Part shown: piece after piece, positions 1,014-25,546 of the stretch
Layout of the letters: each line of letters begins with the position of its first letter
Numbering within the stretch: position 1 is the stretch's first letter
Source of the DNA: Steroidobacteraceae bacterium
GTDB lineage: Bacteria; Pseudomonadota; Gammaproteobacteria; Steroidobacterales; Steroidobacteraceae
Reading direction: 5' to 3'
Assembly: GCA_019683695.1 (NCBI GenBank)
Contig: JADGHX010000009.1
Location: 1-51,515 of the forward strand
Length of the DNA: 51,515 bases
Program-made: the position numbers and the translations under genes
Notes under the pieces: model-generated
What the model was told of the DNA's origin: nothing
What the model saw: only the letters and a program-made list of their open reading frames with translations
The model's database searches: none

Positions 1014-2522
1014 TCAGAGCTGCTGCTTCTCCGGAGGCGCCGTGGATGCGGTCAGCTCGCGGATGAGTGCCGCAGTCGCCTCGTGCACCTCGATGCGCGT
1101 GCCGCCGCGACCATGGCCGCCGGCCCTGCCGAGCGCCGAGTCGAGCGGCGTCATGCCCTTCTTGTCCTTGGCCGTGAGGTCGGCGTTGTGCGCGACGAGC
1201 GCCTTGATCACATCGTTCCAGCCCCAGAGCGCGGCACCGTGCAGCGCCGTCTGGCCCAGGCGCGTGTCACGTGCGTTCACGTCTGCGCCGGCCTTCACGA
1301 GCAGCTCGATGGTCTCGACGGCCTGCTCCTGCGTCTTGAACCGGCCGCGTGTGTCGATCTCGTTCGAGCCGAGGTTCGCGGCGGCCATCACGGGCGTGTG
1401 CCCGTAGATGTTGGGCAGGTTCGGATTTGCGCCGTAGGCGAGCAGCAGCTTCACCGCCGGAACGTCACCGGCCTTGGCCGCGCGCAGCAGCGGCGTGGCG
1501 CCCATGGTGAGCATCTGGTCCGCGCCACGATCGGGGCCGAGCGCGCGGTACGGCGGGAACAGTTTGAGCTGCGCGTTGGGATTCGCACCTGCCTTCAGCA
1601 GCATCTCGATGAGCTGCAGGCTCGTGGTCTCATCGAGTGAAATGCGATCGGGGCGGCCGCCATGCGGGATCGTGTTCAGATCGACGGCGCTGTAGAGCGG
1701 GGTGCGGCCCCACCAGTCCCACTTGTTCGGATTCGCGCCGCTCTCGAGCAGGTATCGCGCCGTATCGAAATGGAAGTTCTGGATGGCCATGATGAGCGGC
1801 GTGACGCCTTCGGGGTCGGTCATGTCCACGTCCGCACCCGCCTCGACCAGCGCCTTCGCGCACTCGAGGCAGCCCTGCCGGGCCGCATAGAGCAGCGGCG
1901 TCAACCCGCCCGCGGGCCGCGCCTGCGCGCGGGGCTCCGCCGTGACCTGGCGCTGCCAGTTGTTCACCTTCGAGCGCGCGTTCACCTCCGCGCCATGCTT
2001 CACGAGCAGCTTCACCATCTCCGGCTGGCTCTGCGCGGCGGCCCACATGAGGGCGGTCTGCCCTTTCCAGTTTTCCACCGCGTTGACGTTCGCCTTGTGC
2101 CGGATGAGGAGCTTCGCCGCCTCCACGTTGCTCGTGCGCGCGAGCAGCATGAGCGCCGTCTGGCCATCCGCGTTGGGCGATTCCGGATCGGCGCCGGCCT
2201 CGAGGAGCTTGCGGATCACCTCAACGTTCCCCGTGACCGCCGCTTCCGAAAGCGGCGAGGAGCCGTATTCATTCACGGCGTTCACGTCGGCTCCGGCCTT
2301 GATGAGCCGATCGACGAGTTCCACGTCGTTACGATAGACCGCCCAGTGCAGCGCCGTGGTGCCATCCTTCTCCGCGGCATTCACGTCTGCCTTCTGCTCG
2401 ATGAGCTGCAGGGCGGCGGCGGTGTCTCCCGACTTCGCCAGCTCCACGAGCGATGCCGTGCCGAACGCGACACCCTGCCCCATCAATGCAGCGGCCACCG
2501 CGGCCGCAAGCCGAATCCGCAT
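1014..2522 (-). CDS. Exported ankyrin-repeat protein, cassette 1
   Basis: About 502 residues: a signal peptide (MRIRLAAAVAAALMGQG...) followed by around ten ankyrin repeats (GTTALHWAV, GQTALMLLA, GLTPLLYAA, GRTPLYSAV). Ankyrin repeats bind proteins, and the leader puts this one in the periplasm. I chose the ATG at 2522 because it starts the signal peptide, has GGAG about 10 bases upstream and lies 5 bases after the stop of the DUF1552 gene; the longer open frame runs back into that gene. Two non-canonical inserts recur in the paralogues at 10192 and 19241: one around the sequence VTAEPRAQARPAGG and one around QLKLFPPYR...DRG. This suggests a shared partner rather than generic repeats. A periplasmic ankyrin protein, AnkB of Pseudomonas aeruginosa, supports a catalase; a chaperone or protective role for the heme proteins here is only an analogy. 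Confidence 0.85.
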   Translation of the reverse strand: MRIRLAAAVAAALMGQGVAFGTASLVELAKSGDTAAALQLIEQKADVNAAEKDGTTALHWAVYRNDVELVDRLIKAGADVNAVNEYGSSPLSEAAVTGNVEVIRKLLEAGADPESPNADGQTALMLLARTSNVEAAKLLIRHKANVNAVENWKGQTALMWAAAQSQPEMVKLLVKHGAEVNARSKVNNWQRQVTAEPRAQARPAGGLTPLLYAARQGCLECAKALVEAGADVDMTDPEGVTPLIMAIQNFHFDTARYLLESGANPNKWDWWGRTPLYSAVDLNTIPHGGRPDRISLDETTSLQLIEMLLKAGANPNAQLKLFPPYRALGPDRGADQMLTMGATPLLRAAKAGDVPAVKLLLAYGANPNLPNIYGHTPVMAAANLGSNEIDTRGRFKTQEQAVETIELLVKAGADVNARDTRLGQTALHGAALWGWNDVIKALVAHNADLTAKDKKGMTPLDSALGRAGGHGRGGTRIEVHEATAALIRELTASTAPPEKQQL

Positions 2523-2527
2523 GATCG

Positions 2528-3847
2528 TCAGAGCTCCGTGATCAGCCCGGTGCTGTCGCCGACCTTGTCCTGTTCCACACCGATGCGCTGAAGCAGCGTG
2601 AGGTGCACGTTCGCGAGCGGCGTGTGATCCGGATACACGAGGTGCTGGTTGCCCTTGAGCTTGCCGCAGCCCCCGCCGACCACCGCCGTCGGCAACGGGA
2701 ACTGGTTGTGACGGTCGCTGTTGCTCATGTTGCTGCCGTAGAGAATGATCGCGTGGTCGAGCAACGAGCCGTCGCCGTCCGGGATGGACGCGAGCTTGGC
2801 GAGCCATTTCGCGAACACCTGCGTGTGGTAGCGCTGGATGCGCACCAGCTTTTCCTTCTTCGCCGGATCGTTCGCGTGATGGGACACGGCGTGGAAGGCA
2901 TCCGGCACACCGACGATGTTGTAGGTGCGGCCGCTCACCTCCGCAGCCATCATGAAGTTCACGACGCGCGTCATGTTCCCCTGGAACGCGAGCGCCGCCA
3001 TGTCGAACATGAGATTCAGGTGATGATCGAAGTTCTCCGGGATGCCGACCGGCACCTCCGGGAGCTTGAGCTTCGAGAGATCCTGCGCTTCGGTTTTCTG
3101 GATCCGGCGCTCCAGCTCGCGCACGGTCTCGAGGTAATCCGAGAGTGCCGCGCGATCCCGCGCGCCGAGCCGGGCCTGCAGAGCCGCGGCGTCCTCCCGC
3201 ACCATGTCCAGGATGCTGCCGTACTGCTGAACGAGCGCCTTGCGCTCCTCGGGCGTATCCCCGCGGCCGAACAGGCGCTCGAAGAGCTTGCGCGGGTTGT
3301 ACTCCATGGGCAGCGGCGTGGTCGGCGTGCGGAAGGAAATCGTGCCGGAGTAATTGCAGCCGTAGTCACGATCGCACGCGCCACCGCCACCCTGGGGCTC
3401 CGTGGCGATCTCGAGCGAGGGCAGCGGGGTTTCCTGGCCGATGTGGTTGGCGGCCATCTGGTCCACCGTGATGGCCATGTTGGGCTCCTGGCCCTGCTTG
3501 GGATGCACGCAGCTCAGCCAGGTTGCCGGAACGATGGCGTGCACCGCCTGGCTCTCACCCGGACGGTTCCCGAGCCCGCTCACGATCGTGAGCTTGTCCC
3601 TGAAGTCCTTCAGCGGCTCGAGAATGGGCGACAGCTCGAAATCCCGGCCGGCCTTCGCGGGCGTCCACTTCTCCATGATGGCGCCGTGCGGGAAGTAGAT
3701 GAACGCCATGCGGGGCTTCGCCGCCGCCGCCGTTTTCGCAAGCGCCGTGCGCGCGGGCACCATCGCATCCAGGAACGGCAAGGCGATCATTGCACCGGCG
3801 CCGCGGAGGAAGGTTCTGCGGGGAATGTGCTTCTTGGTGATGAACAT
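2528..3847 (-). CDS. DUF1552 family protein with Tat signal, cassette 1
   Basis: A 439-residue protein of the DUF1552 family (PF07586), of unknown function and common in Planctomycetes, Myxococcota and Acidobacteria. The N terminus has a twin-arginine motif (RRTFLRG, R10-R11), so it should be exported folded. Visible family landmarks are YFPHGA at 51-56, a Cys pair C158/C164 in CDRDYGC, the HxxSHH motif at H319-H324, and GSNMSNSDRH near the C terminus. These His and Asn clusters look like a metal or hydrolase site, but no activity is established. GAGGA lies about 9 bases before the ATG. It sits between the DUF1592 gene and the ankyrin gene with gaps of 23 and 5 bases, clearly one transcript. 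The copies at 11769 and 20769 are close paralogues. Confidence 0.9.
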   Translation of the reverse strand: MFITKKHIPRRTFLRGAGAMIALPFLDAMVPARTALAKTAAAAKPRMAFIYFPHGAIMEKWTPAKAGRDFELSPILEPLKDFRDKLTIVSGLGNRPGESQAVHAIVPATWLSCVHPKQGQEPNMAITVDQMAANHIGQETPLPSLEIATEPQGGGGACDRDYGCNYSGTISFRTPTTPLPMEYNPRKLFERLFGRGDTPEERKALVQQYGSILDMVREDAAALQARLGARDRAALSDYLETVRELERRIQKTEAQDLSKLKLPEVPVGIPENFDHHLNLMFDMAALAFQGNMTRVVNFMMAAEVSGRTYNIVGVPDAFHAVSHHANDPAKKEKLVRIQRYHTQVFAKWLAKLASIPDGDGSLLDHAIILYGSNMSNSDRHNQFPLPTAVVGGGCGKLKGNQHLVYPDHTPLANVHLTLLQRIGVEQDKVGDSTGLITEL

Positions 3848-3870: not shown

Positions 3871-6351
3871 TCAGTGCAACGCGGCCTGGGCGGTTTTCAC
3901 GTCCACCTCGTCCGCAGGCATCATCTGCATGCTGAACGGGTCACTCAGCACAATGCCGGTGACGATGGCAGAGAACTTGTAGTCATGCTTCGCCGCCTCG
4001 CGCACGATCGCGCGGACGGTGGGCATGTCCTGGTACTCGACCGGGCGACCGAGCGCGTAGGTCATCAGCTTCCGGGTGAGCGTCTGGACGAACTGCTCGG
4101 GGCGGCTCAGGAGGTAATTGCGCAGCCCGTCGACCCCGTTGAGCGACACGTCGTGCACGCTGCCGGCCGAGTCGATCGGCGTGCCCGTCTCCCGATCCTT
4201 GTCGCGCCAGCCTCCGATCGCGTCGAAGTTCTCGAGCGCGAATCCCAGCGGATCGATGATGCCGTGGCACGAGTTGCAGGTCGGGTTCGCCCGGTGGGCT
4301 TCCATGCGCTCACGCACGGTCGTCGGACGCACGCCCGTCATGTTTTCCTTCAGGGCCTCGACGCCAGGCGGCGGCGCCGCCGGCGGCGTGCCGATGAGCG
4401 TTTCCAGCACCCACGCGCCGCGCCGAACGGGTGAGGTGCGATTGGCGTAGGACATGCCGAGCAGGAAGCTCCCCTTGCCCAGCAGCCCCCACCGCTTCGA
4501 GTCCGGCAGCGTGACGCGCCGGAAGCGCTCGCCACGCACGTTCGGAATGCCGTAGTGGCGCGCCAGGCGCTCGTTCACATACGTGTAGTTCGCGGAGAGC
4601 AGATTCACGACGCTCTGGTCCTCCGCGAAGATGCTGCCGACGAACAGCTCCATCTCGCGACGGAAGGCCTCGCGCAGCGTGTTGTCGAACTCCGGATAGA
4701 TCGTGGGATCGGGCTCGATCGAGTCCACCTCGTCCACGGTGAGCCACTGGCCCGCGAAGCTGGTCGTGAGCGCCTGCGCGCGCGGATCGGCCAGCATGCG
4801 TTTCACCTGCTGCTCGATCACCGCGCGATCGCGCAGCTTGCCCTCGGTGGCGAGCTTCAGCAGCTCATCATCCGGCCCCTGGCTCCACAGGAAGAACGAC
4901 AGCCGCGAAGCGAGCTCGACATCGCTGATCCGGTAGATGCTGCCCGGCTTCGCATCCGGCGGCGGCATCTCGACGCGATAGAGGAACTTCGGGCTCGCGA
5001 GAATCGCCATCACGGCCTGCTGAATGCCGTTGTCGAACGAGCCTCCGGTCAGGCGGGCCGCCTTGTAGAAGCGCATGGGCGCCGCGATGTCGTCATCCGT
5101 CACCGGGCGACGGTACGCCTTGCGCGCGAGCGTGCTCACGATCTGCTGCGCACACGGCAGCTCCTCGGCTTCACTCGCCGGCCGGCACACGAAGATCTTC
5201 TTGCGGCTCGGCGTCTCGGTCAGACCGGTCGCAGCCGTCGGGCCCACGATCTCGATGCCCTGCACGCCGGGCACGGGCGGCCGCCCGTTGTCGAACGGCT
5301 GGAGCATCTCGTCGCTTTCGGCCTGCGTGCGCGCCACGAACGCAATGCCGATCTTGCGCGGGCCCGCCTTCACGTGCAGCTTGATGTTCTGGAACCGCGC
5401 GCGGATCGCGTTCGCCGCCGGCGCCTGCTTCTGGTCCACCGCCTTCAGGTCTTCCTCGCCGCCCAACTCGGCTTCGAAGACCTTTTCGCCATCGAGCGTC
5501 ATGATGAGGCGCTGCCGGGTATCGAGCCCCGACACGTAGCCGCCGCCGAATCCGGCGCTCTGGTTGATGTTGAAGATGTACTCGCCATCGGCCGGGAACA
5601 GATGCTCGATGAGCAGTCCGCCGCGCGTGCCGAGGGGCAGGCCTTCCACGTGCGCGTACTGGTTCGCGCCCGGCGGCGTGCGGTAGACGACGCTCGCGGG
5701 CCCCGGATTGGGATCGCCGACGGCCTTGAGGCTCACTTCCTGCGCGGCCACGATGTACTGATCGAGGAACGACGGCGAGACTCTCAGCACGCTCGCCACG
5801 TTGTCGAAGCCTTCGGATTTCGTCTCACGCGGCAGCAGCGCCGCCGCATCGATCCTGAGCCCGAGCAGATGCTCGATCTCGCGTGCGTACTCGGTGCGGT
5901 TCAGCCGGTGCAGCACCACGTGCCCCGGATTCGGGTGCTCGGCGGCGGCCGCATCGAGCTGGCTTTCGAGCCACGCCACCTGCGCGTTCACGGCCTCCTG
6001 GCTGGGCTGCGGCTTGTCCGGCGGCGGCATGAGGCGGCCACGGAGCTTGCGCACGGCCTCCTCCCAGACTTCCGCATCCTGACCGAGCGAGTCCGGCGAG
6101 AGCACATCGAAGGCGAGGCCGCCCGCCCAGTCCGTGGAGTTGTGGCACTCGTTGCAGTACTTGTTGAAGAACTCCCACTGGGGCGGCGCATCCCCGTGCG
6201 GGTTGGCAGAGCCCGAGGGCGCGGAGGCGGCAACGTTCGACGGGGCGGCGGCCGACCCTTCCGCGGCCACGGCTGACGCGCAAGCCGCCCCGAAGACCGC
6301 GCCCGCAAGCACCAGAACGGTGGGCCTCAACCGGGCCGTCACCGTGGGCAT
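3871..6351 (-). CDS. DUF1592/DUF1588/DUF1585 diheme protein (planctomycete-cytochrome type), cassette 1
   Basis: About 826 residues. After a Sec leader comes a heme c site CNECH (C66-C69-H70), then a DUF1587-type stretch (LHRLNRTEYAREIEHLL), a beta-rich middle, DUF1595 (RKAYRRPVT), DUF1592 (LASRLSFFLWS), DUF1588 (RRGAWVLETLIGTPP) with a second CxxCH site at C692-C695-H696, and a C-terminal DUF1585 (LMTYALGRPVEYQDMPTVRAI). The two CxxCH motifs predict a periplasmic diheme electron-transfer or redox enzyme; the family has no assigned reaction. I chose the ATG at 6351 for its clean signal peptide; an ATG at 6378 is also possible. Translated upstream sequence before that runs toward the MBL gene and is not supported. 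The MBL stop is 67 bases upstream, so the genes are probably co-transcribed. Confidence 0.88.
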   Translation of the reverse strand: MPTVTARLRPTVLVLAGAVFGAACASAVAAEGSAAAPSNVAASAPSGSANPHGDAPPQWEFFNKYCNECHNSTDWAGGLAFDVLSPDSLGQDAEVWEEAVRKLRGRLMPPPDKPQPSQEAVNAQVAWLESQLDAAAAEHPNPGHVVLHRLNRTEYAREIEHLLGLRIDAAALLPRETKSEGFDNVASVLRVSPSFLDQYIVAAQEVSLKAVGDPNPGPASVVYRTPPGANQYAHVEGLPLGTRGGLLIEHLFPADGEYIFNINQSAGFGGGYVSGLDTRQRLIMTLDGEKVFEAELGGEEDLKAVDQKQAPAANAIRARFQNIKLHVKAGPRKIGIAFVARTQAESDEMLQPFDNGRPPVPGVQGIEIVGPTAATGLTETPSRKKIFVCRPASEAEELPCAQQIVSTLARKAYRRPVTDDDIAAPMRFYKAARLTGGSFDNGIQQAVMAILASPKFLYRVEMPPPDAKPGSIYRISDVELASRLSFFLWSQGPDDELLKLATEGKLRDRAVIEQQVKRMLADPRAQALTTSFAGQWLTVDEVDSIEPDPTIYPEFDNTLREAFRREMELFVGSIFAEDQSVVNLLSANYTYVNERLARHYGIPNVRGERFRRVTLPDSKRWGLLGKGSFLLGMSYANRTSPVRRGAWVLETLIGTPPAAPPPGVEALKENMTGVRPTTVRERMEAHRANPTCNSCHGIIDPLGFALENFDAIGGWRDKDRETGTPIDSAGSVHDVSLNGVDGLRNYLLSRPEQFVQTLTRKLMTYALGRPVEYQDMPTVRAIVREAAKHDYKFSAIVTGIVLSDPFSMQMMPADEVDVKTAQAALH

Positions 6352-6418: not shown

Positions 6419-7354
6419 TCAGACGATGCCACCGAGCTCACGCACGTGACCCCAGAGGCCGCGATACCCATTGACGATGAACTGCCGCGGGTCGCCCCAC
6501 TTCGCGTTGAATTCCTCCGTGGGGGGTGACGCGAGCAGATCATCCGTGCCCATGCCCTTCTTCATGAGCCCGACGAGGCGGTCCTTCATCGTGCTCAGCA
6601 TGTGCAGCTGCTCCTCGAGGTGCGCGCGTGTCTGCAGCGGCCCGGTACCCGGGACGATCTTCGTCTCGTCATTCGTCAGCTCGAGGAGCGCCTTGTTCGC
6701 ATCGACCATGCCGCCGAGCCATCCGCCGGTGGCCACGTCCAGCACCGGATAGTGGCCTACCGCAACGAGGTCTCCCGCGACCAGCACGTTCTGCGCGGGG
6801 AAGAACACGTAGAGGTCGCCATCCGTGTGTGCGCGCGGCAGGTGGCCGTAGCGCACCTCCTCACCGGCGAACGTGAGGCTCCCTTCGGTGTAGAAGGTTT
6901 CCGTGGGCCAGGCGATCTTCGGGCGCGGCGTATACTCGCGCTGTTCCCAGTCCACGTAGAACTCGGCTCCCAGCCAGAGCTTCGTGTTCTCGTGCGCGAT
7001 GATCTTCGCGCCGGCCTTGCCGAGCCGCTCGTTCGAGCCCGTGTGATCCCAGTGCCAGTGGGTGTTGAAGACCACCTGCGGCGCGCGCACCTTCGTGTGG
7101 CGCGCGATGGCCTTCAGCAGATCGTGGGAGCGCTCGGCCACACCGCCGTCGATCATCAGCACCTGATCGCCCTTGGCGAAGATGACCACGTTCGTGCCGG
7201 CGCCCGTCACCTGTGAAATGGTGTCGGTGATCGGCGTGATGACGATGGGCTCGCGTCGTGATCGCGCCAACGCAACAGGTGCGAGCGATGCGCCGGCCAC
7301 TCCACCGAGCGCCAGCTTGAGAAACTCTCTGCGTGTCTTTTCCGATGCTCTCAT
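6419..7354 (-). CDS. Metallo-beta-lactamase-fold hydrolase with Tat signal, cassette 1
   Basis: A 311-residue protein with a twin-arginine leader (TRREFLKLALGG, R8-R9) and an intact MBL metal site: HWHWDH at H99-H104, a later His in AHTDGD, and the bridging Asp in VAGD. It most resembles MBL-fold hydrolases seen beside quinoproteins and glyoxalase-II-like enzymes; the substrate is unknown. It is the first gene of a four-gene minus-strand operon (MBL, DUF1592, DUF1552, ankyrin). Export through Tat fits a metalloprotein that loads zinc or iron before export. A perfect palindrome (7381-7396) and an AT-rich promoter candidate (7452-7459) lie upstream. The fold and export are well supported, the reaction is not. 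Confidence 0.9.
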   Translation of the reverse strand: MRASEKTRREFLKLALGGVAGASLAPVALARSRREPIVITPITDTISQVTGAGTNVVIFAKGDQVLMIDGGVAERSHDLLKAIARHTKVRAPQVVFNTHWHWDHTGSNERLGKAGAKIIAHENTKLWLGAEFYVDWEQREYTPRPKIAWPTETFYTEGSLTFAGEEVRYGHLPRAHTDGDLYVFFPAQNVLVAGDLVAVGHYPVLDVATGGWLGGMVDANKALLELTNDETKIVPGTGPLQTRAHLEEQLHMLSTMKDRLVGLMKKGMGTDDLLASPPTEEFNAKWGDPRQFIVNGYRGLWGHVRELGGIV

Positions 7355-11754: not shown

Positions 11755-11768
11755 CATGTCGCCCCGGA

Positions 11769-15655: not shown

Positions 15656-15664
15656 GCGCCGGGC

Positions 15665-15909: not shown

Positions 15910-16845
15910 ATGACGTGCTCGATTCCTCGCAGAGGCTTTCTCAAAGCCACCCTCGGCGGCGCAGCCGCCTTGTCGCTCGCCCAGTGGGCGCCCACCGGCG
16001 CACTCGCAAGAGAGAAGCCTGCGCCGCTCACCGCCACGCGACTTGCCGACCACATCACGCTCATCAGCGGTGCAGGTGCGAACGTCGTCGCGGTGAGCGG
16101 AAAGGATGAGGCGCTTCTCGTGGATGGCGGGCTGGAAAGCCGCTCTCGCGAGCTGCTGAAACGGGCGCTGCAGGAAACGGGCGCAAAGCGCGTGACCACA
16201 CTCATCAACACGCACTGGCACCCGGAACAGACGGGCTCGAACGAGCGGCTCGGCAAGGCCGGGGCGCGCATCATTGCGCACGAGAACACCAAGCTGTGGC
16301 TCGGCTATCCGAATCTCGTCCCACTCACGGAAACCACATACGGCCCTCTGCCGCCCAAGGCGCTGCCGAACGACACCACGTACGACAAGGGAAGCCTGGA
16401 CTTTGCCGGGAACGCGGTGGAGTACGGCTATCTCCTTCAGGCCCACACGGACGGAGATCTCTACGTGAAGCTGCCGGGCGCAAACGTGCTCGTGGCCGGA
16501 GGCGTGGTGTCCTCCGATGGCTGGCCCATCATCGACTACAAGACAGGTGGCTGGATCGGCGGGCTCGTGAACGGGCAGCGCGCCCTGCTCGAATTGGCGG
16601 ACGCGCACACGCGCATCGTTCCGGCGAATGGTCCGGTGATCGATCGCGCCGAGCTCGAGGCGCAGTCGAAAATGTACGCCACCATCCAGGATCGGCTGCA
16701 GAAGCTGCTGCGCAAGGGCATGGGCCCGGACGAAGTGGTCGCGGCTCAGCCCACAAAGGATTTCCGGCCCGAATGGGGCGACCCCACGAACTTCGTCCTG
16801 CTCGCGTTCAAGAGCCTGTGGGGCCATCTGGCGCCGGACGCGTAA
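15910..16845 (+). CDS. MBL-fold paralogue with degenerate metal site, Tat signal, cassette 2
   Basis: A 311-residue paralogue of the MBL proteins at 6419 and 24593, but on the opposite strand to its cassette. The Tat leader is present (RRGFLKATLGG, R7-R8). The metal motif HWHWDH of the paralogues reads HWHPEQ here (H102, H104, P105, E106, Q107), so the key Asp and the following His are replaced. The bridging Asp in VAGD is also lost (VAGG, G198). The later His in AHTDGD is kept. The frame is intact over its whole length and the rest is well conserved, so it looks like a pseudo-enzyme (binding or regulatory role) rather than a dead gene. It ends 63 bases before the convergent PQQ-2 gene. Confidence 0.88.
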   Translation: MTCSIPRRGFLKATLGGAAALSLAQWAPTGALAREKPAPLTATRLADHITLISGAGANVVAVSGKDEALLVDGGLESRSRELLKRALQETGAKRVTTLINTHWHPEQTGSNERLGKAGARIIAHENTKLWLGYPNLVPLTETTYGPLPPKALPNDTTYDKGSLDFAGNAVEYGYLLQAHTDGDLYVKLPGANVLVAGGVVSSDGWPIIDYKTGGWIGGLVNGQRALLELADAHTRIVPANGPVIDRAELEAQSKMYATIQDRLQKLLRKGMGPDEVVAAQPTKDFRPEWGDPTNFVLLAFKSLWGHLAPDA

Positions 16846-16908: not shown

Positions 16909-19026
16909 TCAGTTCTTCTTCCGCGCGGCGAGACCCTCGACGATGTACGCCGCAATGTCCCTCAGCTCATCGGCGGTGTACACGTTGGTGAAGGACGGCA
17001 TGTTGTTCTTGCCCGCCGCACTCACCTGAACGATGTGATCCGCGCTTTGCCCGGCGACGAGTGACGGCCCGCCACCGTGACCGCCCTCGCCGCTCTCACC
17101 GTGACACGGCAGACAGGCGGCCTTGTAGATCCGTTCGCCGTTGGCGCGATCCGGCGGACGCGCGGACCCCGCGGCCGCAGGCGGTGGCGCCGCGGCGGCG
17201 CCCGGCGGTGCGCCTGCAGGTGCCGGCTTGAGCGATTCGATCTTGCCGTCCAGCGAGAACAGCCAGATTCCGTCCCCGCGCTTGCCGTTGGCGAACACGC
17301 CGCCACCGGCATGCACGGCCACGAGCTGCCGGTCCTTGTGCTTGAACGTGGTGACCGTCGTGTTGACGCCGGCGTCCGTCATGAACTCCCAGAGCTTCGC
17401 GCCGGTGCGCTTGTCGAGCGCGGTGAGCCGGCCGTCGGCGCGACCGACGAAGAGCAGCCCGCCCTTCGTGACCACCGCGCCGCTGTAACAGATCTCGCGC
17501 CACTGCTGCCGCCACACGAGCTTGTTCGTGCGCACGTCCAGCGCGGCCAGGATGCCCGCATCGTCCACATCCGCCTGGGCGAAGCCGCCACCCATGTACA
17601 CCTTGCCGCCACCGGGCTCCTCGAGCTTCTCGCGCACCCAGAAGGTGCTGATGCGATCCGACGCGCAGACGTACAGCAGATGCGTTTCAGGGTCGTAGGC
17701 GCTCGGTGGCCAGTTCGCTCCGCCGAACGTGCCCGGCTTCACGGTCACGGGCTCGGTCCAGAACGGCGTGAAGATGCGCCCCTGATTCGGAATCTCGCCG
17801 GTGCCTTCGATGAGCCGCGCGCCTTCCGGAACAATGTCCACCTGCTGCGGAACGATGGCATCACCGATCGGATACGGCTGTGTGGCCGCGGTCGCCTGGC
17901 GCGGCTCCTGCAGAACGGGCCGCTCCTCGATGCCGATGAGCGGCTTGCCCGTCACGCGATCCAGGATGTAGGCCCAGCCCGTCTTCGAGACTTCGACCAG
18001 CCCCTTGCGCGGGCGCCCGTCGATGACCGCATCGAACAGGATGACGGGATTCGGCGAGTCGTAGTCCCAGATGTCGTGATGCACCTGCTGGAAATGCCAG
18101 CGGTACTTCCCCGTCTTCGCCTCGATGGCGACGATGGACACGGAGAACAGGTTGTCACCCGGCCGCACACCGCCGTGCAGATCCGGGCCGGGGTTGCCCG
18201 TCGAGAAGTACAGCAGGCCGAGCTCGGGATCCACGGCTGGGGTCTGCCACACCGGCGCGCCGCCGTGCTTCCAGGCATCGCTGTTCTGGGGCCACGTCTC
18301 ATGACCGAACTCGCCGGGACCGGGCACGGTGTAGAAGGTCCAGCGGAGCTTGCCCGTCTTCGCATCGAAGGCCTTCACGCGCCCGCGCGTCCCCATCTCA
18401 CCGCCGTTGAAGCCGGTGATGACGAGCCCGTCGTAGTACAGCGGTGCGGAGGTGATGGCGAACCCTTCCCGCCAGTCCTCGGCGGCCACCGACCAGATGA
18501 CCTTGCCCGTGCGCTGATCGAGCGCGGCGAGGCGCGCATCGGTGTGCCCGACGAACACCTTGCCCTCGCCGAGCGCCACGCCACGGCTCACCTTGCCGAT
18601 GGGGCTTCCCGCGCGCGGATCCGGATTGCCGTGGTAGGTCCAGAGGATGCGGCCGGTGTCCACATCGATGGCGAACACGTCGTTGACGCCGTTCGCCACG
18701 TAGAGCACGCCCTCATACGCCAGAATCTGCGCCTGACCGGCGTTGCCGGGGCCCGCACCGGAGCCCATGCTCGTGCGCCACAGCGCCTTGAGACCTGAGA
18801 TGTTCTCCCGATTCAGCAGCGTGAGCGGCGAATAGCGCTGGTTGTAGATCGTGCCGCCATTGGTGATCCAGTTTCTGGTCGGCAGCTCGGTGAGCTGCGC
18901 CGCCGTGAACGCCGGCGCAGGTTTGATCTCCGTGCCGCTCGCCGATGCCGCGGACGTGACGAGCGCCCCTGCTGTCAGACCCAACGCAACGAGAAAGCCT
19001 TTTCCGGCTCGCGCCCGTGTTCGCAT
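16909..19026 (-). CDS. PQQ-dependent dehydrogenase with C-terminal cytochrome c (PQQ-2)
   Basis: A 705-residue exported quinohemoprotein: signal peptide, PQQ propeller, an Ala/Pro/Gly-rich linker at about 605-630, and a cytochrome c domain (CLPCH, C638-C641-H642; Met ligand M676 in NNMPSF). The catalytic-Asp region IWDYDSPNP and the FGGANWPPSAYDP block are present. It differs from PQQ-1 in two places. The vicinal Cys pair is absent (SPIGKVSRG at that position), and the PQQ-contacting Glu aligns with Q98. It may therefore use a different substrate class or bind PQQ differently. A strong GAGGGGGGTGATC precedes the ATG. The gene follows the cassette 3 ankyrin gene after 214 bases and converges on the MBL-like gene. 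Confidence 0.9.
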   Translation of the reverse strand: MRTRARAGKGFLVALGLTAGALVTSAASASGTEIKPAPAFTAAQLTELPTRNWITNGGTIYNQRYSPLTLLNRENISGLKALWRTSMGSGAGPGNAGQAQILAYEGVLYVANGVNDVFAIDVDTGRILWTYHGNPDPRAGSPIGKVSRGVALGEGKVFVGHTDARLAALDQRTGKVIWSVAAEDWREGFAITSAPLYYDGLVITGFNGGEMGTRGRVKAFDAKTGKLRWTFYTVPGPGEFGHETWPQNSDAWKHGGAPVWQTPAVDPELGLLYFSTGNPGPDLHGGVRPGDNLFSVSIVAIEAKTGKYRWHFQQVHHDIWDYDSPNPVILFDAVIDGRPRKGLVEVSKTGWAYILDRVTGKPLIGIEERPVLQEPRQATAATQPYPIGDAIVPQQVDIVPEGARLIEGTGEIPNQGRIFTPFWTEPVTVKPGTFGGANWPPSAYDPETHLLYVCASDRISTFWVREKLEEPGGGKVYMGGGFAQADVDDAGILAALDVRTNKLVWRQQWREICYSGAVVTKGGLLFVGRADGRLTALDKRTGAKLWEFMTDAGVNTTVTTFKHKDRQLVAVHAGGGVFANGKRGDGIWLFSLDGKIESLKPAPAGAPPGAAAAPPPAAAGSARPPDRANGERIYKAACLPCHGESGEGGHGGGPSLVAGQSADHIVQVSAAGKNNMPSFTNVYTADELRDIAAYIVEGLAARKKN

Positions 19027-19240: not shown

Positions 19241-20725
19241 CTACTCGTTGGCTGCGAGCAGCTTCTGAAGCAGCTTCGCCGTTTCGGGGCGCGGCTCTGC
19301 GGCCGCCACACCGATGCGTCCTGTCGGACCGGCCTTGCCCATCGCGACGTCGAGCGGCGTGATGCCGTTGCGATCCGCGGCTCGCAGGTTGGCGCCGTTG
19401 TCCGCCAGAAACTGCACGAACGCATTCCAGCCCCAGAGCGCTGCGCCATGCAGTGCCGTCTGGCCGTTGTCGCGAGTCGCGTTGATGTTGGCGCCCGCCT
19501 TGAGGAGCAGCTTCGCCGCCTCGATGCACTCCTGCTCGTTCCGGAAGCGCGCTCGCGTATCGATGGTGGTGGAGCCGACTCCGGCCGCGGCCATCAGGGG
19601 CGTGATGCGAAGATCATTCGGCAGATCCACCATCGCGCCATGCTCGAGAAGCAGACGAATCGCAGGCACGTCCCCGGCCTTGGCCGCACGGATCAAGGGA
19701 GTGGTGCCCACGGTGAGCATGCTGTCTCCGCCTCTGTCCTGCCCCAGCGAGCGGTAGGGCGGGAAGAGCTTGAGCTGCATGTTGGGATTCGCACCCGCCT
19801 TCAGCAGCAGCTCCATCACTTGCAAGGGCGTCGTCGCATCCGATGACGGGCGGTCCGGCCGGCCGCCGCGCGGCGTGGTGTTGTAATCCACCGTGGAATA
19901 GAGCGGCGCGCGGCCCCACATGTCCCACTTGTTCACGTCCGCGCCGGCCCGGATGAGATAGGCCGCCACGTCCCAGCGGGCATTCAGCGTCGCCATCAGC
20001 AGCGGGCTGATGTTTTCCGGATCGGCGAGATTGATGTCCGCCCCGCCCTTCACGAGCGCTTCGGCGCAGGCGACGCAGCCTTCACGCGCCGCGAGCAGCA
20101 GTGCCGTGAGCCCGCCCGGCGGGCGGTTCTGCGGGCGTGGCTCGGCGGTCACCCGGCGAGCCCAGTGGCGGATCTTCGAACGCGCGTTCACGTCCGCGCC
20201 GTGCTTGATGAGCAGCTTCACCATCTCCGGCCGGCTCTGCGCGGCCGCCCACATCAGCGCCGTTTGCCCGCGCCACTGCTCGCGCGCATTGACGTTGGCC
20301 CCGCGCGAGATGAGGAGCTTTGCCGCTTCGAGATGGTTGGTACGCGCCACCGTCATCAGGGCGGTCTGCCCTTCCGGGTTCGGCGATTCCACGTCCGCGC
20401 CCGCATCGAGCAGCAGCTTCAGCACCTGCACGTCGCCGATCTCGGCGGCTTCCTGGACCGGCGTGGTGCCGTAGTCGTTGGTCGCGCGAACGTCCGCGCC
20501 GGCCTTGATGAGTCGCTTCACGAGCTCCGCATCGCCCACGTGCGCGGCCCAGTGCAGCGCCGTTGTGCCATCGCTCGAACGCTCGTTCGCATCGGCGCCC
20601 TGCTCGAGACGCGCGAGCGCCTCGGCGCGATTCTCGCTGCGGATGGCCTCGATCAGCGAGGCCGCGCTCGACACGCCACTCGCGCAGAGAATCAGGGCCA
20701 ACGCGGCCCATCGCCACAGATGCAT
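19241..20725 (-). CDS. Exported ankyrin-repeat protein, cassette 3
   Basis: A 494-residue protein with a signal peptide (MHLWRWAALALILCASG...) and around ten ankyrin repeats (GTTALHWAAHVG, GQTALMTVA, GLTALLLAAREG, GRAPLYSTV, GQTALHGAALWG). AAAGG lies about 8 bases before the ATG. It carries the same two family-specific inserts as the other copies (VTAEPRPQNRPPGG and QLKLFPPYR...DRGGD). Its last repeats (ALHGAALWGWNAF) match cassette 1 more closely than cassette 2, hinting that copies 1 and 3 are the closer pair. It is the last gene of the cassette 3 operon, 43 bases after the DUF1552 stop. Confidence 0.87.
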   Translation of the reverse strand: MHLWRWAALALILCASGVSSAASLIEAIRSENRAEALARLEQGADANERSSDGTTALHWAAHVGDAELVKRLIKAGADVRATNDYGTTPVQEAAEIGDVQVLKLLLDAGADVESPNPEGQTALMTVARTNHLEAAKLLISRGANVNAREQWRGQTALMWAAAQSRPEMVKLLIKHGADVNARSKIRHWARRVTAEPRPQNRPPGGLTALLLAAREGCVACAEALVKGGADINLADPENISPLLMATLNARWDVAAYLIRAGADVNKWDMWGRAPLYSTVDYNTTPRGGRPDRPSSDATTPLQVMELLLKAGANPNMQLKLFPPYRSLGQDRGGDSMLTVGTTPLIRAAKAGDVPAIRLLLEHGAMVDLPNDLRITPLMAAAGVGSTTIDTRARFRNEQECIEAAKLLLKAGANINATRDNGQTALHGAALWGWNAFVQFLADNGANLRAADRNGITPLDVAMGKAGPTGRIGVAAAEPRPETAKLLQKLLAANE

Positions 20726-20768
20726 GATTCGACCTTTTTCGAGGACCGCGGCGCTTGCCGGGCGCGCG

Positions 20769-22088
20769 TCAGATTTCCGTGAACCGGCCCGTGCTGTCCC
20801 CGAAGGACTCCAGGTGCACGCCGACGCGGTCCATGAGCGCGAGATGCATGTTGGCGATGGGCGTGTGGTCCGGGTAGCGCAGGTGCTGGTTGCCTTTGAT
20901 CTTGCCGCAACCGCCGCCCACGATTGCGGTGGGCAGCGGGAAATGATCGTGCAGGTTGCTGTTGCTCATGTTGCTGCCGTACAGGATGACGGAGTGGTCC
21001 AGCATGGACCCTTCGCCATCGGGCATCTCGGCGAGCTTCTTCACGAAGCTGGCGAAGACCTCCGTATGCCAGGCCTGGAGCTTCGCGAGCCGATCCATCT
21101 TCTGGCGATTGTTCTGGTGATGCGAGAGCGGATGGAACGCATCGGAGATGCCGATGAAGGTGTAGGGCTGATTGCTCACCTCGGCCGCCATCATGAAGCT
21201 CGCGACGCGGGTGAGATTGGCCTGGAAGGCGAGCGCGAGCATGTCGAACATGATCTTGATGTGCTCGTCGAAGCGCGCCGGAATGCCGGCCGGCGCATCG
21301 GGCACCGTCACACCCGAGAGATCGCGCGAAGAGAGCTTCTGCACGCGCCGCTCGATTTCCCTCACCGTGCTGAGATAGTCGGAGAGCGTCGCGCGGTCCC
21401 GCGGGCCGAGCGTGCGTGCGAGATCCGCGGCATCCTGCCGCACGAGGTCGATGATGCTGGCGTTCTCGCGCGCGAGCAGCGCGCGCTCTTCCGCCGTGTC
21501 CCCCTGCCCGAAGAGCTGCTGGAAGAGCTTGCGCGGGTTGTGCTCCATCGGCAGCGGGGTCTCGGGGTCGCGGAAGGAAATCGTCTTGCCGTAGCTGCAC
21601 CCGTAGTTGCGATCGCAGGAGCCTTCGCCGCCCTGCTCTTCCGTCGCGAGCTCCAGTGAGGGCAGCGGCGTATCCTGCCCGATGTGCTTCGCGACGATCT
21701 GGTCCACGGTGATGCCGCCATGCGGCTCGTGACTGATGCGAGGCGGAACGCAGCTGAGCCAGGTGCCCGGCGTGATGGCGTGCACGGGCGTGGCGATCGC
21801 GGACTTGTTCTCGAGGCCGCTCACGACCGTGAGGTATTTCTGGAACGGCTTCAGGGGCGCGAGGATGGGCGGCAGGTCGAAGTCGCGGCCTTCCTTCTGA
21901 GGCGTCCACTTGCCCATCACCGCGCCGTGCGGAAAGTAGATGAACGCCATGCGCGGCTTCGGCGCCGCGGCCGTCTTCGCCACCGCGGTGGCGGCGGGCA
22001 CCATGGCATCGAGCAGCGGCAACCCGATGCTCGCGCCCATGCCGCGCAACACGGTTCGACGGCTCAGATGCTTCTTCAGGATGAACAT
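20769..22088 (-). CDS. DUF1552 family protein with Tat signal, cassette 3
   Basis: A 439-residue DUF1552 protein with the twin-arginine leader (SRRTVLRG), YFPHGA, the Cys pair CDRNYGC, AFHPLSHHQNN for the HxxSHH motif, and GSNMSNSNLH near the end. GAGGGG lies about 6 bases before the ATG. It is 28 bases downstream of the DUF1592 stop. Compared with copy 1, the GSNMSNSDRH motif has Asn in place of Asp (GSNMSNSNLH), a small change in an otherwise invariant block. Exported; function unknown. Confidence 0.9.
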   Translation of the reverse strand: MFILKKHLSRRTVLRGMGASIGLPLLDAMVPAATAVAKTAAAPKPRMAFIYFPHGAVMGKWTPQKEGRDFDLPPILAPLKPFQKYLTVVSGLENKSAIATPVHAITPGTWLSCVPPRISHEPHGGITVDQIVAKHIGQDTPLPSLELATEEQGGEGSCDRNYGCSYGKTISFRDPETPLPMEHNPRKLFQQLFGQGDTAEERALLARENASIIDLVRQDAADLARTLGPRDRATLSDYLSTVREIERRVQKLSSRDLSGVTVPDAPAGIPARFDEHIKIMFDMLALAFQANLTRVASFMMAAEVSNQPYTFIGISDAFHPLSHHQNNRQKMDRLAKLQAWHTEVFASFVKKLAEMPDGEGSMLDHSVILYGSNMSNSNLHDHFPLPTAIVGGGCGKIKGNQHLRYPDHTPIANMHLALMDRVGVHLESFGDSTGRFTEI

Positions 22089-22116
22089 CTCCTGCCCCTC
22101 TCTCGCTGGCCTGGCC

Positions 22117-24588
22117 TCACCGGGCCAGGGCTGTCTTCTGTCCGGGTTGCGATGCCTCCCCGGCGAGCTCGCTCATGAGGAAGGCATCGCTGCGAACAAT
22201 GCCGAGCACGATGGCCGACAGGCGGTAATCCTGCCGTGCGGCCTCCCGGACGATCGCCCGGACGCGCGGCATATCGTAATACTTCAGTCCGCGCCCGAGG
22301 GCGAACGTCATGAGGTGCTCCGTGAAAGTCTGCACGAACTGCTCGGAGCGCTGCACCAGCGCATTGCGCAGATCGTCCGGTCCGTGGAGCGGCGTGCCAT
22401 CCGAGAGCTGCCCGGTGGCGTCGATGGGCACGCCGGCATCGATGTCCTTCTCGCGCCACTGACCGATCGCGTTGAAGTTCTCGAGCGCAAGGCCCAACGG
22501 GTCGATCACGCCATGGCAGTTGTTGCACGAAGGCGTGTTGCGATGGGTCTCCAGCCGCTCGCGCACGGTGAGCGCTTTCTCGCCCTCCTGCGTCTCCACG
22601 AATGCCTGCACGTTCGGCGGCGGTGCGGCCGGCGGCGTTCCGAGGAACTTCTCCAGGATGTACGCGCCGCGAATCACGGGCGTGGTGCGGTTCGCGTAGG
22701 AGGTCGCCATGAGGAACGCGCCCTTGCCGAGCAGCCCCCACCGATAGGAATTCTTCAGCTCCACGCGCTGGAAACGGCCGCCGCGCACGCTCTTGATGCC
22801 GTAGTGAAGCGCGAGGCGCTCGTTCACGAACGTGTGATTCGCCGTCAGCAGGTCCACGACGCTGCGATCGCTCTCGAACACGCTCGCGATGAAGAGCTCG
22901 AGCTCTTTCTCGAAGGCGTCGATCAGATCCGCCGAATACTGCGGGAAGAGGTTCGGGTCCGGATCGACGAGCCGCAGGCCCTGCACGTTCAGCCACTGGA
23001 ACGCGAAGTTGGTGACGAGCGAGCGCGCCCGCGGGTCCGCCAGCATGCGGCGCACCTGCGCTTCGAGCACCGCCGGCTCGTGGAGCCTGTTCTCGTTGCC
23101 GAGCCGGATCAGCTCGTCATCCGGCGGCCGGCTCCACAGGAAGAACGACAGGCGCGACGCGAGATCGATGTCGCTGATGCGGAACACCTGGCCCGGCCGC
23201 GCATCCGCCGGCGGATGATGCGAGCGATACAGGAACTTCGGGCTGACCAGGATCGCCATGATGCCCTTCTGGATGCCGGTCTCGAACCCGCCCTGCGCGT
23301 GGCCCTCCCGGTAGAAGGCCATGGCGCCTTCGAGGTCCGCGCTCGTCACGGGACGGCGGAACGCCTTGCGCGCAATGCTCGAGAGAATCTGCTCGGCACA
23401 CGGCTGCTCCTCCGCCGCGCTCGCGGGATAGCAGACGAAGATCTTTCGGCGGCTCGGCGTCTCGCTCACCCCCTTCGGGTTGAACGGTCCCTTGATCTCC
23501 ACGTTGCTGATGCGCGGACCATCCGAATTGCCATTCACGTGCAGGCCGACACCGGCGACCGGCACGAAGAGGTGCAGCGGCTCGTCCGATTCGGCGGCGG
23601 TCTTCGCGAGGAAGGTGATGCCGACACGGTGCGAACCCGCCTTCACGAAGCGGCGGATGTTCTTGAAGCGGTCGTTGATGCGGGCGACGCCGGCGGCCTG
23701 CTCGACGTCCACGGCTTCCAGATCTTCCTCGCCGCCGAGCTTTGCCTCGAATACGCGCTCGTCATCCACGGTGATGATGAGCGTGTAGGGATCCATCACG
23801 CCCCAGAGGTAGCCCGCGCCGATGAGGCCGTTGATGGTGAACTCGTATTCGCCATCGGCCGGGAAGTAATGCTCGATGAGCATGCCGCCGCGTGTGCCCA
23901 ACGGCAGCCCCTCGTGGTGCATGTAATGGTTCGCGTTCGGAGCGCCGGGATAAATCGTGCTCTGCGGGCGCGCATGCGCATTGCCCAGCGCATCGATGCT
24001 CACCTGCCGCGCGGCCGACAGATATTGCTCCAGGAACGCGGGCGAGACTTTCAGCACGTCCGCCGCGTTGTCGAAGCCGTCGCTCTTGTCGTCCCGGGGC
24101 AGCAGCGTGGTGGGATCGATCTTGAGGCCGAGGATGTCCTCGATGGCGTTCGCGTACTCGGTGCGGTTCAGGCGATGCAGGCCGACATGCCCGGGCGGGC
24201 GATGCCCGGCAGACTGCCGGTCGAGGAAGCTCTCCATGGCCGACACGAACTGCATGCGCGCCGCGGCGTCCGGCTGCGGATTTCCCGGCGGAGGCATGAG
24301 CGAGCCCCGGAGCTTGCGCACGGCCTTCTCCCACATTTCCGGATCGTCCCCGGCCGTCTCCGGCTGCAGGATGTCGAAGGCGACGCCACCGGCCCAGTCC
24401 GTGGCGTTGTGACACTTGACGCAATAGTCCTGCAGCAAGTGCCAGTTCGCGGCGAGTGCCTCATGCGGATTCGCCGCACCGTTCTGCACGGCCGTTTCGG
24501 TTGTCGGCCGCGCTTGCGCACCCCACGCGCCCTGCGCCATCACAAGGAGGCCGGCGAGCGCGGCGAAATGCATTCTGCGTAACGTCAT
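22117..24588 (-). CDS. DUF1592/DUF1588/DUF1585 diheme protein, cassette 3
   Basis: A 823-residue protein with the family layout: leader, heme site CVKCH (C56-C59-H60), DUF1587-type LHRLNRTEYANAIEDIL, DUF1595 (RKAFRRPVT), DUF1592 (LASRLSFFLWS), DUF1588 (RGAYILEKFLGTPP), second heme site CNNCH (C688-C691-H692), then DUF1585 (LMTFALGRGLKYYDMP). The start could be the ATG at 24588 or the one five codons on (24573), which gives a shorter leader. Only 4 bases separate it from the MBL stop, so translation of the pair is likely coupled, more tightly than in cassette 1. The two heme motifs are preserved in all three copies, which argues that the hemes matter. Confidence 0.88.
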   Translation of the reverse strand: MTLRRMHFAALAGLLVMAQGAWGAQARPTTETAVQNGAANPHEALAANWHLLQDYCVKCHNATDWAGGVAFDILQPETAGDDPEMWEKAVRKLRGSLMPPPGNPQPDAAARMQFVSAMESFLDRQSAGHRPPGHVGLHRLNRTEYANAIEDILGLKIDPTTLLPRDDKSDGFDNAADVLKVSPAFLEQYLSAARQVSIDALGNAHARPQSTIYPGAPNANHYMHHEGLPLGTRGGMLIEHYFPADGEYEFTINGLIGAGYLWGVMDPYTLIITVDDERVFEAKLGGEEDLEAVDVEQAAGVARINDRFKNIRRFVKAGSHRVGITFLAKTAAESDEPLHLFVPVAGVGLHVNGNSDGPRISNVEIKGPFNPKGVSETPSRRKIFVCYPASAAEEQPCAEQILSSIARKAFRRPVTSADLEGAMAFYREGHAQGGFETGIQKGIMAILVSPKFLYRSHHPPADARPGQVFRISDIDLASRLSFFLWSRPPDDELIRLGNENRLHEPAVLEAQVRRMLADPRARSLVTNFAFQWLNVQGLRLVDPDPNLFPQYSADLIDAFEKELELFIASVFESDRSVVDLLTANHTFVNERLALHYGIKSVRGGRFQRVELKNSYRWGLLGKGAFLMATSYANRTTPVIRGAYILEKFLGTPPAAPPPNVQAFVETQEGEKALTVRERLETHRNTPSCNNCHGVIDPLGLALENFNAIGQWREKDIDAGVPIDATGQLSDGTPLHGPDDLRNALVQRSEQFVQTFTEHLMTFALGRGLKYYDMPRVRAIVREAARQDYRLSAIVLGIVRSDAFLMSELAGEASQPGQKTALAR

Positions 24589-24592
24589 GACC

Positions 24593-25546
24593 TTAGCGTG
24601 TAACGCGGCGAATCTCGCCTACGTGATACCAGGCGCCGTCGTACGCCATGCGGAGAAACACGTCGGGGTTGCCCCATTGCGCGTCGAAATCCCGCGTGGG
24701 ACGCGAGGCGAGGAACTCCTCGTAGGTCTCGCCCTTGTAGTAGCTCTCGCCTATCTTCGAGAGCACGGTGAAACACATGTCGAGCTGCGATCGCAGATCC
24801 GCCCGCGTCAGCACCGGGCCCGCGCCCGGAATGATGCGAGTGTTGTCGTCTGCCTTCGCGATGAGGGTCTTCAGGCCGCTGACCATCCCGCCCAGCCAGC
24901 CGCCGGTGCAGTAATCGACGACCGGATATCGGCCGACGCAGGCAACGTCCCCCGCCACCAGCACGTTCTGGTTCGGGAAGAAGACATAGATGTCGCCATC
25001 CGTGTGGGCCTGAGGCAGGTGGCCGTATTCGAGCGTCTCGTTTCCGAAACCGAGATGCTGCGTGTCGTAGAAGAAGGTCTTGTTGGGCAGCGCGCGGGCG
25101 GGCAGCGGCGGATACGTGCGGTCCTCCCACTTCGAAAGGACTTCAGTACCCAGCCACAGCCGGGTGTTCTCGTGCGCGATGATGGTGGCGCCGGCCTTGC
25201 CGAGCGCCTCGTTCGAGCCGGTGTGATCCCAGTGCCAGTGCGTGTTCACCAGGGTTTGCACACCGCGACGGCCCGTTTCCTGGGCGACGAGGCGCAACAG
25301 CTCGGAGGACTGCTCCGCGCGTCCTCCGTCGACCAGCAGAACGCCGTCCGATGAGGTGGCCGCCACGACATTTCCGCCTGCACCTTCGATGAGCAAGAGG
25401 TCATCACTCAGGCGCGTTGCGCGTAGCGCGGAGGCCTTGGTGCGGGCGTGCGCCACACCGGTGCCGATCGCAGACAGGCCCGCGCTCCCCCACGAGAGGG
25501 TCACTGCGCTGGCCAATGACGCTCGCAGCAGATGCCGTCGATTCAA
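24593..25546 (-). CDS. Metallo-beta-lactamase-fold hydrolase with Tat signal, cassette 3
   Basis: About 317 residues from a TTG start at 25546, giving a Tat leader that begins NRRHLLRAS. The metal site is complete: HWHWDH (H103-H108), the His in AHTDGD and the Asp in VAGD. An ATG at 25675 would add 43 residues, but that stretch contains the promoter (25593-25623) and a 17-base palindrome and reads as non-coding, so I prefer TTG. It heads the cassette 3 operon. Compared with cassette 1 it carries a few extra Cys residues (VGRYPVVDYC and DMCF). Substrate unknown. It could be a lactonase, thioesterase-like or quinoprotein-associated hydrolase. Confidence 0.82.
   Translation of the reverse strand: MNRRHLLRASLASAVTLSWGSAGLSAIGTGVAHARTKASALRATRLSDDLLLIEGAGGNVVAATSSDGVLLVDGGRAEQSSELLRLVAQETGRRGVQTLVNTHWHWDHTGSNEALGKAGATIIAHENTRLWLGTEVLSKWEDRTYPPLPARALPNKTFFYDTQHLGFGNETLEYGHLPQAHTDGDIYVFFPNQNVLVAGDVACVGRYPVVDYCTGGWLGGMVSGLKTLIAKADDNTRIIPGAGPVLTRADLRSQLDMCFTVLSKIGESYYKGETYEEFLASRPTRDFDAQWGNPDVFLRMAYDGAWYHVGEIRRVTR

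Follow-up and report, generated by a model that had tools for sequence, protein, structure and literature searches.

In Verrucomicrobia, the genes for planctomycete-specific cytochromes c (PSCyt) usually adjoin unknown families, of whose functions nothing is known (PMC5615132). We analyzed a 51,515-nucleotide stretch of DNA from a Steroidobacteraceae bacterium (assembly GCA_019683695.1, contig JADGHX010000009.1, positions 1 to 51,515; hereafter, the window), in which three copies of a four-gene cassette, A, B and C, lie between 1014 and 25675 with two quinohemoprotein genes interspersed. Each cassette encodes a metallo-beta-lactamase (MBL)-fold protein, a DUF1592 diheme protein, a DUF1552 protein and an ankyrin-repeat (ANK) protein. 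The cassette resembles the Verrucomicrobia PSCyt3 (DUF1588) pairs in its cytochrome Pfam domains and in having an unknown neighbor family (PMC5615132). Unlike these pairs, however, it adds the ankyrin and MBL genes, it occurs in records named Proteobacteria or Acidobacteria, and up to 13 DUF1552 genes are found per genome.

Two further described systems share single components with the cassette. In Cbp2D/X183 of Cellvibrio japonicus, a carbohydrate-binding module (CBM) shares one protein with DUF1587 and two domains that carry c-type heme (PMC8981238). In contrast to Cbp2D, DUF1592 in the window adjoins DUF1552, as it does at 35 of 38 DUF1552 genes of related loci, and Pfam scans of the window proteins found no YceI or CBM2 domain. 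The SoxH-like protein PP_2678 of the ped cluster has an MBL fold, is exported and has been tied to quinoprotein dehydrogenases (PMC12997753). The SoxH-like model TIGR04559, likewise of an exported MBL-fold protein, is the best NCBIfam model for all three window MBLs; however, their scores (83.6, 73.9 and 60.8) are far below its cut-off of 280, the second-site zinc ligands are mostly lost from the cassette MBLs, and the cassette MBL is tied to DUF1552, with no general tie to pyrroloquinoline quinone (PQQ) genes. In a literature search that left subscription papers and preprints mostly uncovered, we found no paper that mentions DUF1592 and DUF1552 together and no description of the four-gene cassette. 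A search combining ankyrin with PQQ terms also found none.

We conclude, with near certainty, that the cassette is a real and conserved unit, based on both gene linkage and the trees described below. The source genome (a 5.18-Mb draft in 312 contigs, 97.65% complete) contains 13 DUF1552 matches and 12 PF07631 matches. All 13 DUF1552 genes have a DUF1592 neighbor (a weak, truncated one at locus L104), 10 have an ankyrin neighbor and seven an MBL neighbor; two of the three loci without ankyrin, L104 and L106, end at a contig edge. We also collected 79 distinct loci from related genomes, mostly metagenome bins, as the best of 390 confirmed matches. This sample is skewed to close relatives, and its record titles name Gammaproteobacteria, Acidobacteria (Terriglobia, Bryobacterales, Vicinamibacteria) and others, some of these names being plainly doubtful. 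Among the 81 DUF1552 genes in these loci, the 38 with 5 kb on either side were counted: DUF1592 was present at 35, ankyrin at 37 and MBL at 33. A second sample of 28 loci, gathered by Pfam profile from relatives of the source genome and sharing some assemblies with the first, gave 18 countable DUF1552 matches out of 31 (with 4 kb on either side; nine of 13 in the source genome itself), with DUF1592 at 18, ankyrin at 16 and MBL at 15. The preliminary description of this locus had held that the cassette idea would fail if the four families rarely occurred together elsewhere. Instead, all three partners accompany DUF1552 at 33 of the 38 and at 15 of the 18 genes.

This linkage greatly exceeds that in the flanking DNA. 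When phmmer matches below 60 bits were discarded, the 676 kb lying within 5 kb of a DUF1552 gene in the 79 loci contained 73 ankyrin and 56 MBL matches, whereas the 476 kb beyond contained none and one, respectively. The association is also kept across four gene orders. Among 49 full cassettes, the order MBL-DUF1592-DUF1552-ANK was found in 33, DUF1592-DUF1552-ANK-MBL in eight and DUF1592-DUF1552-MBL-ANK in four, and the remaining four had a divergent MBL gene. The divergent arrangement, which is that of cassette B, was also seen in L066, L070 and L062.

Next, we compared trees of the four families built from the 49 full cassettes. The patristic correlations between them were 0.75-0.88, compared with permutation maxima of 0.19-0.27. 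The four trees thus agree; the preliminary description had held that the cassette idea would also fail if they showed independent acquisition of each gene. The nearest relatives of cassette A were L023 and L024, those of B were L066 and L070, and those of C were L032, L035, L041, L042 and L051. These narrow groups were set after viewing the nearest neighbors, and the clade analysis is thus a check rather than a blind test. The DUF1552, DUF1592 and ankyrin trees recover all three as clades, whereas the MBL tree recovers A and C (the latter through its four MBL-bearing members) but not B (support 0.15). Identities to the first copy in the window are 61 and 65% for DUF1552, 52 and 56% for DUF1592 (long frames included), 56 and 60% for ankyrin, and 49 and 50% for MBL. 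A recent tandem triplication was ruled out, since the closest relatives of each window copy sit in other genomes. The window copies are thus old paralogs, each with orthologs of its own elsewhere, that were assembled or have stayed side by side. Linkage and co-inheritance show the cassette to be one functional module for exported proteins that has been repeated and has diversified within the genome.

DUF1552 was found in six of 184 genomes of the class, including the source genome. In four of the five other genomes, the DUF1552 gene is distant and has DUF1592 near it, but neither ankyrin nor MBL; the fifth, closer one also has ankyrin. From this distribution, we read the DUF1592-DUF1552 pair as the probable older core, which ankyrin and MBL appear to have joined in one clade.

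All three DUF1552 proteins of the window score far above the PF07586 cut-off of 30 bits (Table 1). Leaders were assessed by eye, and those for twin-arginine translocation (Tat) additionally by sequence pattern. The Tat arginine-pair pattern was found in 92 of 93 DUF1552 proteins and in 46 of 60 cassette MBLs, compared with two of 75 DUF1592 and one of 75 ankyrin proteins. An AlphaFold2 model of the cassette C protein (mf865cb87a201; 439 residues, 90 sequences, pLDDT 84.8) matched sulfatases, phosphodiesterases and phosphatases, with a best Foldseek E-value of 7.9e-07. The first row of the structural comparison was a sulfatase (Z about 17, root-mean-square deviation 3.5, 264 residues), and most of the top rows were similar (Z about 17, 3.4-4, about 240-275 residues). 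DUF1552 is therefore predicted by the model to share the fold of the sulfatase/alkaline phosphatase superfamily. By sequence, it matched no solved chain at E 1, and a profile comparison with DUF1501 as a possible bridge to the sulfatases was uninformative (probability 10%). Many histidines are conserved among the 90 sequences, namely H319, H323, H324 and H380 in all of them, H54 and H103 in 89, H402 in 88 and H341 in 86, as is N373 (88). These histidines presumably bind metal. A secreted Rhodopirellula DUF1552 protein has been listed among regulated genes (PMC2754498).

The DUF1592 proteins of the window match PF07631, PF07627, PF07624, PF07637 and PF07626 above the cut-offs and thus belong to the PSCyt3/DUF1592 family. 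Two CxxCH motifs were found in 73 of 75 DUF1592 proteins of relatives and in each of those in the window, where the preliminary description had already pointed out heme motifs. In a model of the cassette C protein (m17843c0f917d; 823 residues, pLDDT 87.3), residues 209-372 form an internal beta-sandwich like those of CBM6, 35 and 36 (Z 8-9). This sandwich filled the fold-search list, which consequently says nothing on the fold of the helical and heme parts. No solved chain, cytochromes included, matched DUF1592 by sequence at E 1. DUF1587, DUF1588, DUF1592 and DUF1595 are among the uncharacterized domains proposed for anaerobic respiration on the basis of protein domain comparison (PMC7789669).

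The three MBL proteins all pass the PF00753 cut-off of 22.7 bits (Table 1). We examined the zinc ligands of 60 cassette MBLs, using what we take to be the standard positions and numbering (D120, H121, H263). Of the 60, 50 retain the full set of three histidines at the first site. The second-site set D120, H121 and H263 is complete in two, neither of which is a window copy. The last histidine ligand is likewise present in two, and is Thr, Asn and Ala in cassettes A, B and C, respectively. In the cassette B protein, moreover, HWHPEQ stands in place of HxHxDH and AGG in place of AGD. As a control, 10 of the 13 remaining Lactamase_B genes in the source genome have HxHxDH, compared with two of its seven cassette MBLs; of this control set, L212 and L214 are uncertain, and L213 and L215 represent a single gene. 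Because 58 of the 60 are without a complete second zinc site, a role as a working zinc hydrolase is doubtful, and the cassette MBL is unlikely to be a hydrolase of the classical two-zinc type. The solved chain closest to the MBL at 6419-7354, 8d2z, likewise lacks the last His and the Asp and His that HxHxDH supplies to the second site. MBL proteins degenerate in this way may thus make up a broader family. A literature search for 8D2Z with metallo-beta-lactamase found nothing.

We also analyzed the quinohemoprotein and cytochrome b561 genes around the cassettes. The product of 7877-9988 has all the characteristics of a type II quinohemoprotein alcohol dehydrogenase: it matches the solved enzymes (PDB 1kv9, 1yiq) over its full length, with 1yiq as the best match, and has the CC pair at residue 145 and a C-terminal heme motif, CAQCH. 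In contrast, the product of 16909-19026 has no CC pair and, at 426.5, does not reach the TIGR03075 cut-off of 480.05; a CLPCH motif is present, and in an alignment to 1kv9 the Glu, Asn and Asp that we take to be pocket residues are retained. Homologs of this second gene (69-74% identity) lie 3' of the ankyrin gene in L041, L042 and L131, separated from it by open-frame gaps of about 470, 490 and 0 bases, respectively. The DUF1552 proteins of these loci are closest to copy C (77, 77 and 74%); for L131, which is absent from the trees, the identities to A and B are 61 and 58%. A five-gene unit, consisting of the cassette and a quinohemoprotein, thus exists in lineage C. Homologs of b561 directly follow an ankyrin gene in L024 (65%), L025 (52%) and L130 (43%), and are also found on the DUF1552 loci L045 (49%), L117 (46%) and L122 (68%). 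The last of these lies inside an 822-residue open frame (L122:11037-13502), which is perhaps a fusion.

What, then, might the cassette do? We tentatively favor, at less than even confidence, a periplasmic redox module that has diversified substrate by substrate. At its core would be two proteins, the DUF1592 cytochrome with its two hemes and DUF1552, exported by way of a Tat-type leader. DUF1552 would take up its metal before Tat export and work on a periplasmic substrate, while DUF1592 would shuttle electrons between the DUF1552 site and the respiratory chain. The same electron pool could be fed by the neighboring quinohemoprotein in lineage C and by b561 in lineage A. The ankyrin and MBL-fold proteins may act as binding or assembly partners rather than as classical two-zinc hydrolases, and separate copies would serve separate substrates, perhaps carbohydrates or plant-derived molecules imported by nearby TonB receptors. 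A particular account, in which DUF1552 represents a new kind of exported metal redox enzyme that has the sulfatase/alkaline phosphatase fold but a His-rich site instead of the hydrolytic one, DUF1592 serves it alone as diheme electron partner, a mono-metal MBL and the ankyrin protein are assembly factors, and the set is copied per substrate in the manner of polysaccharide loci, seems to us unlikely.

Several observations weigh against the redox module, every chemical step of which we infer. The DUF1592 beta-sandwich also matches C1q/TNF jelly rolls (Z 7.3-7.6), at scores little below those for the CBMs, so that a sugar ligand is no more than a possibility. Wider groups in the trees (A with L025 and L026; B with the second L023 cassette) are non-clades in several trees. 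DUF1552 and DUF1592 occur without ankyrin or MBL matches at 14 loci, namely two of the 79 (L045, L097), three of 11 in the source genome (L104, L106, L110), five of the 28 (L117, L138, L142, L143, L144) and four of the five from other class genomes; at least five of these (L104, L106, L138, L142, L143) are cut by a contig end. Ankyrin and MBL are therefore not essential to the DUF1592-DUF1552 pair. In addition, four acidic or hydroxyl residues of DUF1552, D129, S144, D214 and D231, are invariant in the 90 sequences and T109 is kept in 86, so that the protein may have an acidic-ligand hydrolytic site with a Ser or Thr nucleophile. These residues, together with a list of fold matches filled by sulfatases, phosphodiesterases and phosphatases, agree with a different explanation, in which DUF1552 is an exported hydrolase of sulfate, phosphate or similar esters with an unusual metal site that removes groups from polymers, the product is oxidized by DUF1592 (unless that protein acts elsewhere), and the cassette as a whole combines desulfation or dephosphorylation with oxidation. 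Sulfatase genes are also often close to PSCyt genes in some freshwater Verrucomicrobia (PMC5615132). However, unlike the sulfatases, the three DUF1552 proteins of the window have no match to the Pfam sulfatase model PF00884 at E 0.01. In a weak hhalign alignment with the sulfatases of relatives (probability 50%), moreover, S-N-M of DUF1552 falls, in the best-aligned part, on S-D-[HN], so that Asn-Met apparently replaces one classical sulfatase ligand pair; the weakness of this alignment counts against the redox module as well. We consider such a hydrolase unlikely.

The position of the PQQ genes is another difficulty for the redox module, and also for a reading that follows the preliminary description, in which the cassettes and both quinohemoproteins form one periplasmic pathway for oxidizing alcohols or polyols. 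The preliminary description had proposed a periplasmic oxidation system with a related substrate for each cassette; both the oxidation and the assignment of substrates to cassettes are suppositions. PQQ genes are no denser near DUF1552 (eight in the 676 kb) than beyond (10 in the 476 kb), and a PQQ gene lies within 5 kb of only seven of the 38 DUF1552 genes, leaving 31 without one. PQQ dehydrogenases as a general member of the cassette were thus ruled out by density. Of the 15 quinoprotein dehydrogenase genes in the source genome that exceed the TIGR03075 cut-off, 14 are on contigs where DUF1552 has no match. What stands of the suggestion is that in three other genomes a homolog of the second quinohemoprotein follows cassettes closely related to C, that pqqE is found above its cut-off in the source genome, and that TIGR03075 matches are more numerous in genomes with DUF1552 (median 20, n = 9) than in those without (median 6, n = 31; p 5e-5), also within the family (21.5, n = 8, against 8, n = 17; p 1e-4). 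These counts are uncorrected for kinship and include partial and probably BamB-like matches, and the association may reflect lifestyle. A single pathway of this kind therefore appears quite unlikely. We would give equally little weight to a scheme in which DUF1592 donates electrons to oxygen-activating enzymes such as lytic polysaccharide monooxygenases (LPMOs), the cassette being a redox supply for polymer attack. Cbp2D of Cellvibrio has DUF1587 and two CxxCH domains, and its X183 domain has been investigated for a possible role in supplying electrons to LPMOs (PMC8981238); a table in a study of a lignocellulose community also lists, under the name DUF1592, a protein with CBM2 (PMC6004670). 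However, the sequence of DUF1592 matches no solved chain at E 1, and no LPMO was among 20 scanned neighbor proteins (representatives and a selection), the genome itself not having been searched for LPMOs. Finally, the 13 copies in one genome and the patchy occurrence of the family would be in keeping with a genomic accumulation without joint function, in which paralogs are held together by local duplication or block transfer. The window copies, however, are not mutual nearest relatives, and the linkage extends across records named Gammaproteobacteria and Acidobacteria in several gene orders. We regard accumulation alone as very improbable.

The genes of the window are listed in Table 1. In the direction of transcription on the minus strand, cassette C comes first (25675 to 19241), followed by the quinohemoprotein gene at 19026 to 16909; cassette B (15585 to 10192) and the other quinohemoprotein gene (9988 to 7877) come next, and cassette A (7354 to 1014) precedes cytochrome b561 (768 to 76). 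Every part named in the preliminary description, that is, three four-gene copies, two PQQ-type dehydrogenases between them and a b561, was found in the sequence. Its gene content therefore holds, but the MBL gene of cassette B sits on the plus strand, and b561 lies outside the span of 1014-25546 that it gave. The genes are tightly packed, with five bases from the DUF1552 stop to the ankyrin start in cassette A and 11 in B; these distances are for trimmed starts, which were picked ahead of a leader-like stretch. The real start of the cassette C MBL gene is perhaps near 25555. A fusion of MBL and DUF1592 in the open frame 13093-16827 was ruled out, the MBL gene being antisense to the upstream extension of the DUF1592 frame. 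A scan of 7355-26000 for sigma-70 promoters and terminators was uninformative (promoters, 0 against 1.9 expected; terminators, 13 against 9.9).

Table 1. Cassette genes and adjoining redox genes in the window
Feature	Position	Strand	Evidence and remarks
Cytochrome b561 (Ni_hydr_CYTB)	76..768	-	Pfam PF01292 85 bits, cut-off 30.1; downstream of cassette A
Cassette A exported ankyrin-repeat protein	1014..2522	-	Pfam ankyrin models; start at 2522
Cassette A DUF1552 (HXXSHH)	2528..3847	-	PF07586 310.9 bits; Tat-like leader
Cassette A DUF1592 diheme protein	3871..6351	-	Pfam; CxxCH at 6142-6156, 4264-4278
Cassette A MBL-fold protein	6419..7354	-	PF00753 74.3 bits; Tat-like leader; HxHxDH kept, last His ligand = Thr
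Type II quinohemoprotein alcohol dehydrogenase	7877..9988	-	TIGR03075 614.5 bits, cut-off 480.05; CC pair; C-terminal CxxCH
Cassette B exported ankyrin-repeat protein	10192..11757	-	
Cassette B DUF1552	11769..13082	-	PF07586 294.4 bits
Cassette B DUF1592 diheme protein	13093..15585	-	CxxCH at 15376-15390, 13498-13512
Cassette B MBL-fold protein	15910..16845	+	PF00753 50.4 bits; divergent; second zinc site lost (HWHPEQ, AGG, PANG)
Second quinohemoprotein dehydrogenase	16909..19026	-	PF01011 356.4 bits; TIGR03075 426.5; no CC; C-terminal CxxCH
Cassette C exported ankyrin-repeat protein	19241..20725	-	
Cassette C DUF1552	20769..22088	-	PF07586 302.6 bits; modelled
Cassette C DUF1592 diheme protein	22117..24588	-	CxxCH at 24409-24423, 22513-22527; modelled
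Cassette C MBL-fold protein	24593..25675	-	PF00753 69.2 bits; Tat-like leader; HxHxDH kept, last His ligand = Ala

We also examined the genes that recur beside the cassettes in 90 loci, labelling each family from one representative, with one further member scanned for the TonB group. One family, whose proteins bear leaders and a motif resembling GHWEGDTLVVET but have no confident match in Pfam, was found in 20 of the 90 loci (for example, L064:5202-6385, L111:11072-12413 and L105:1444-2853). A DUF6152 gene occurs in 13 loci and directly adjoins a gene of the GHWEGDTLVVET-motif family in several of them; ABC ATPase genes (14 loci) and GSDH genes (eight) also recur. In the source genome, TonB receptor genes were found in six of the 10 loci outside the window (L102, L105, L107, L108, L109 and L111), with a FecR gene at L109, as in substrate-sensing uptake systems. 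The cassette neighbors suggest uptake and oxidation of external compounds, with no substrate named. Elsewhere in the window, a plus-strand run at 28422-42341 encodes DUF4159, VWA, TPR/peptidase, DUF58, BatA and DUF4175 proteins, which we take to resemble an aerotolerance-type MoxR/Bat locus, and a minus-strand set at 42402-47112 encodes a MacB-type ABC exporter with two FtsX/MacB permeases, an ATPase and an HlyD-type adaptor.

Some environmental genomes contain numerous copies of planctomycete-type cytochromes and their neighbor families, for which no function is known (PMC5615132 for Verrucomicrobia). The compact cassette of Proteobacteria and Acidobacteria, whose partners are fixed, whose DUF1552 has a predicted fold and whose MBL protein shows a defined loss of ligands, offers a testable entry point to them. 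If DUF1552 is a redox enzyme, it would represent new chemistry for a fold regarded as hydrolytic; if it is a hydrolase, a function would be provided for a large set of unknown genes.

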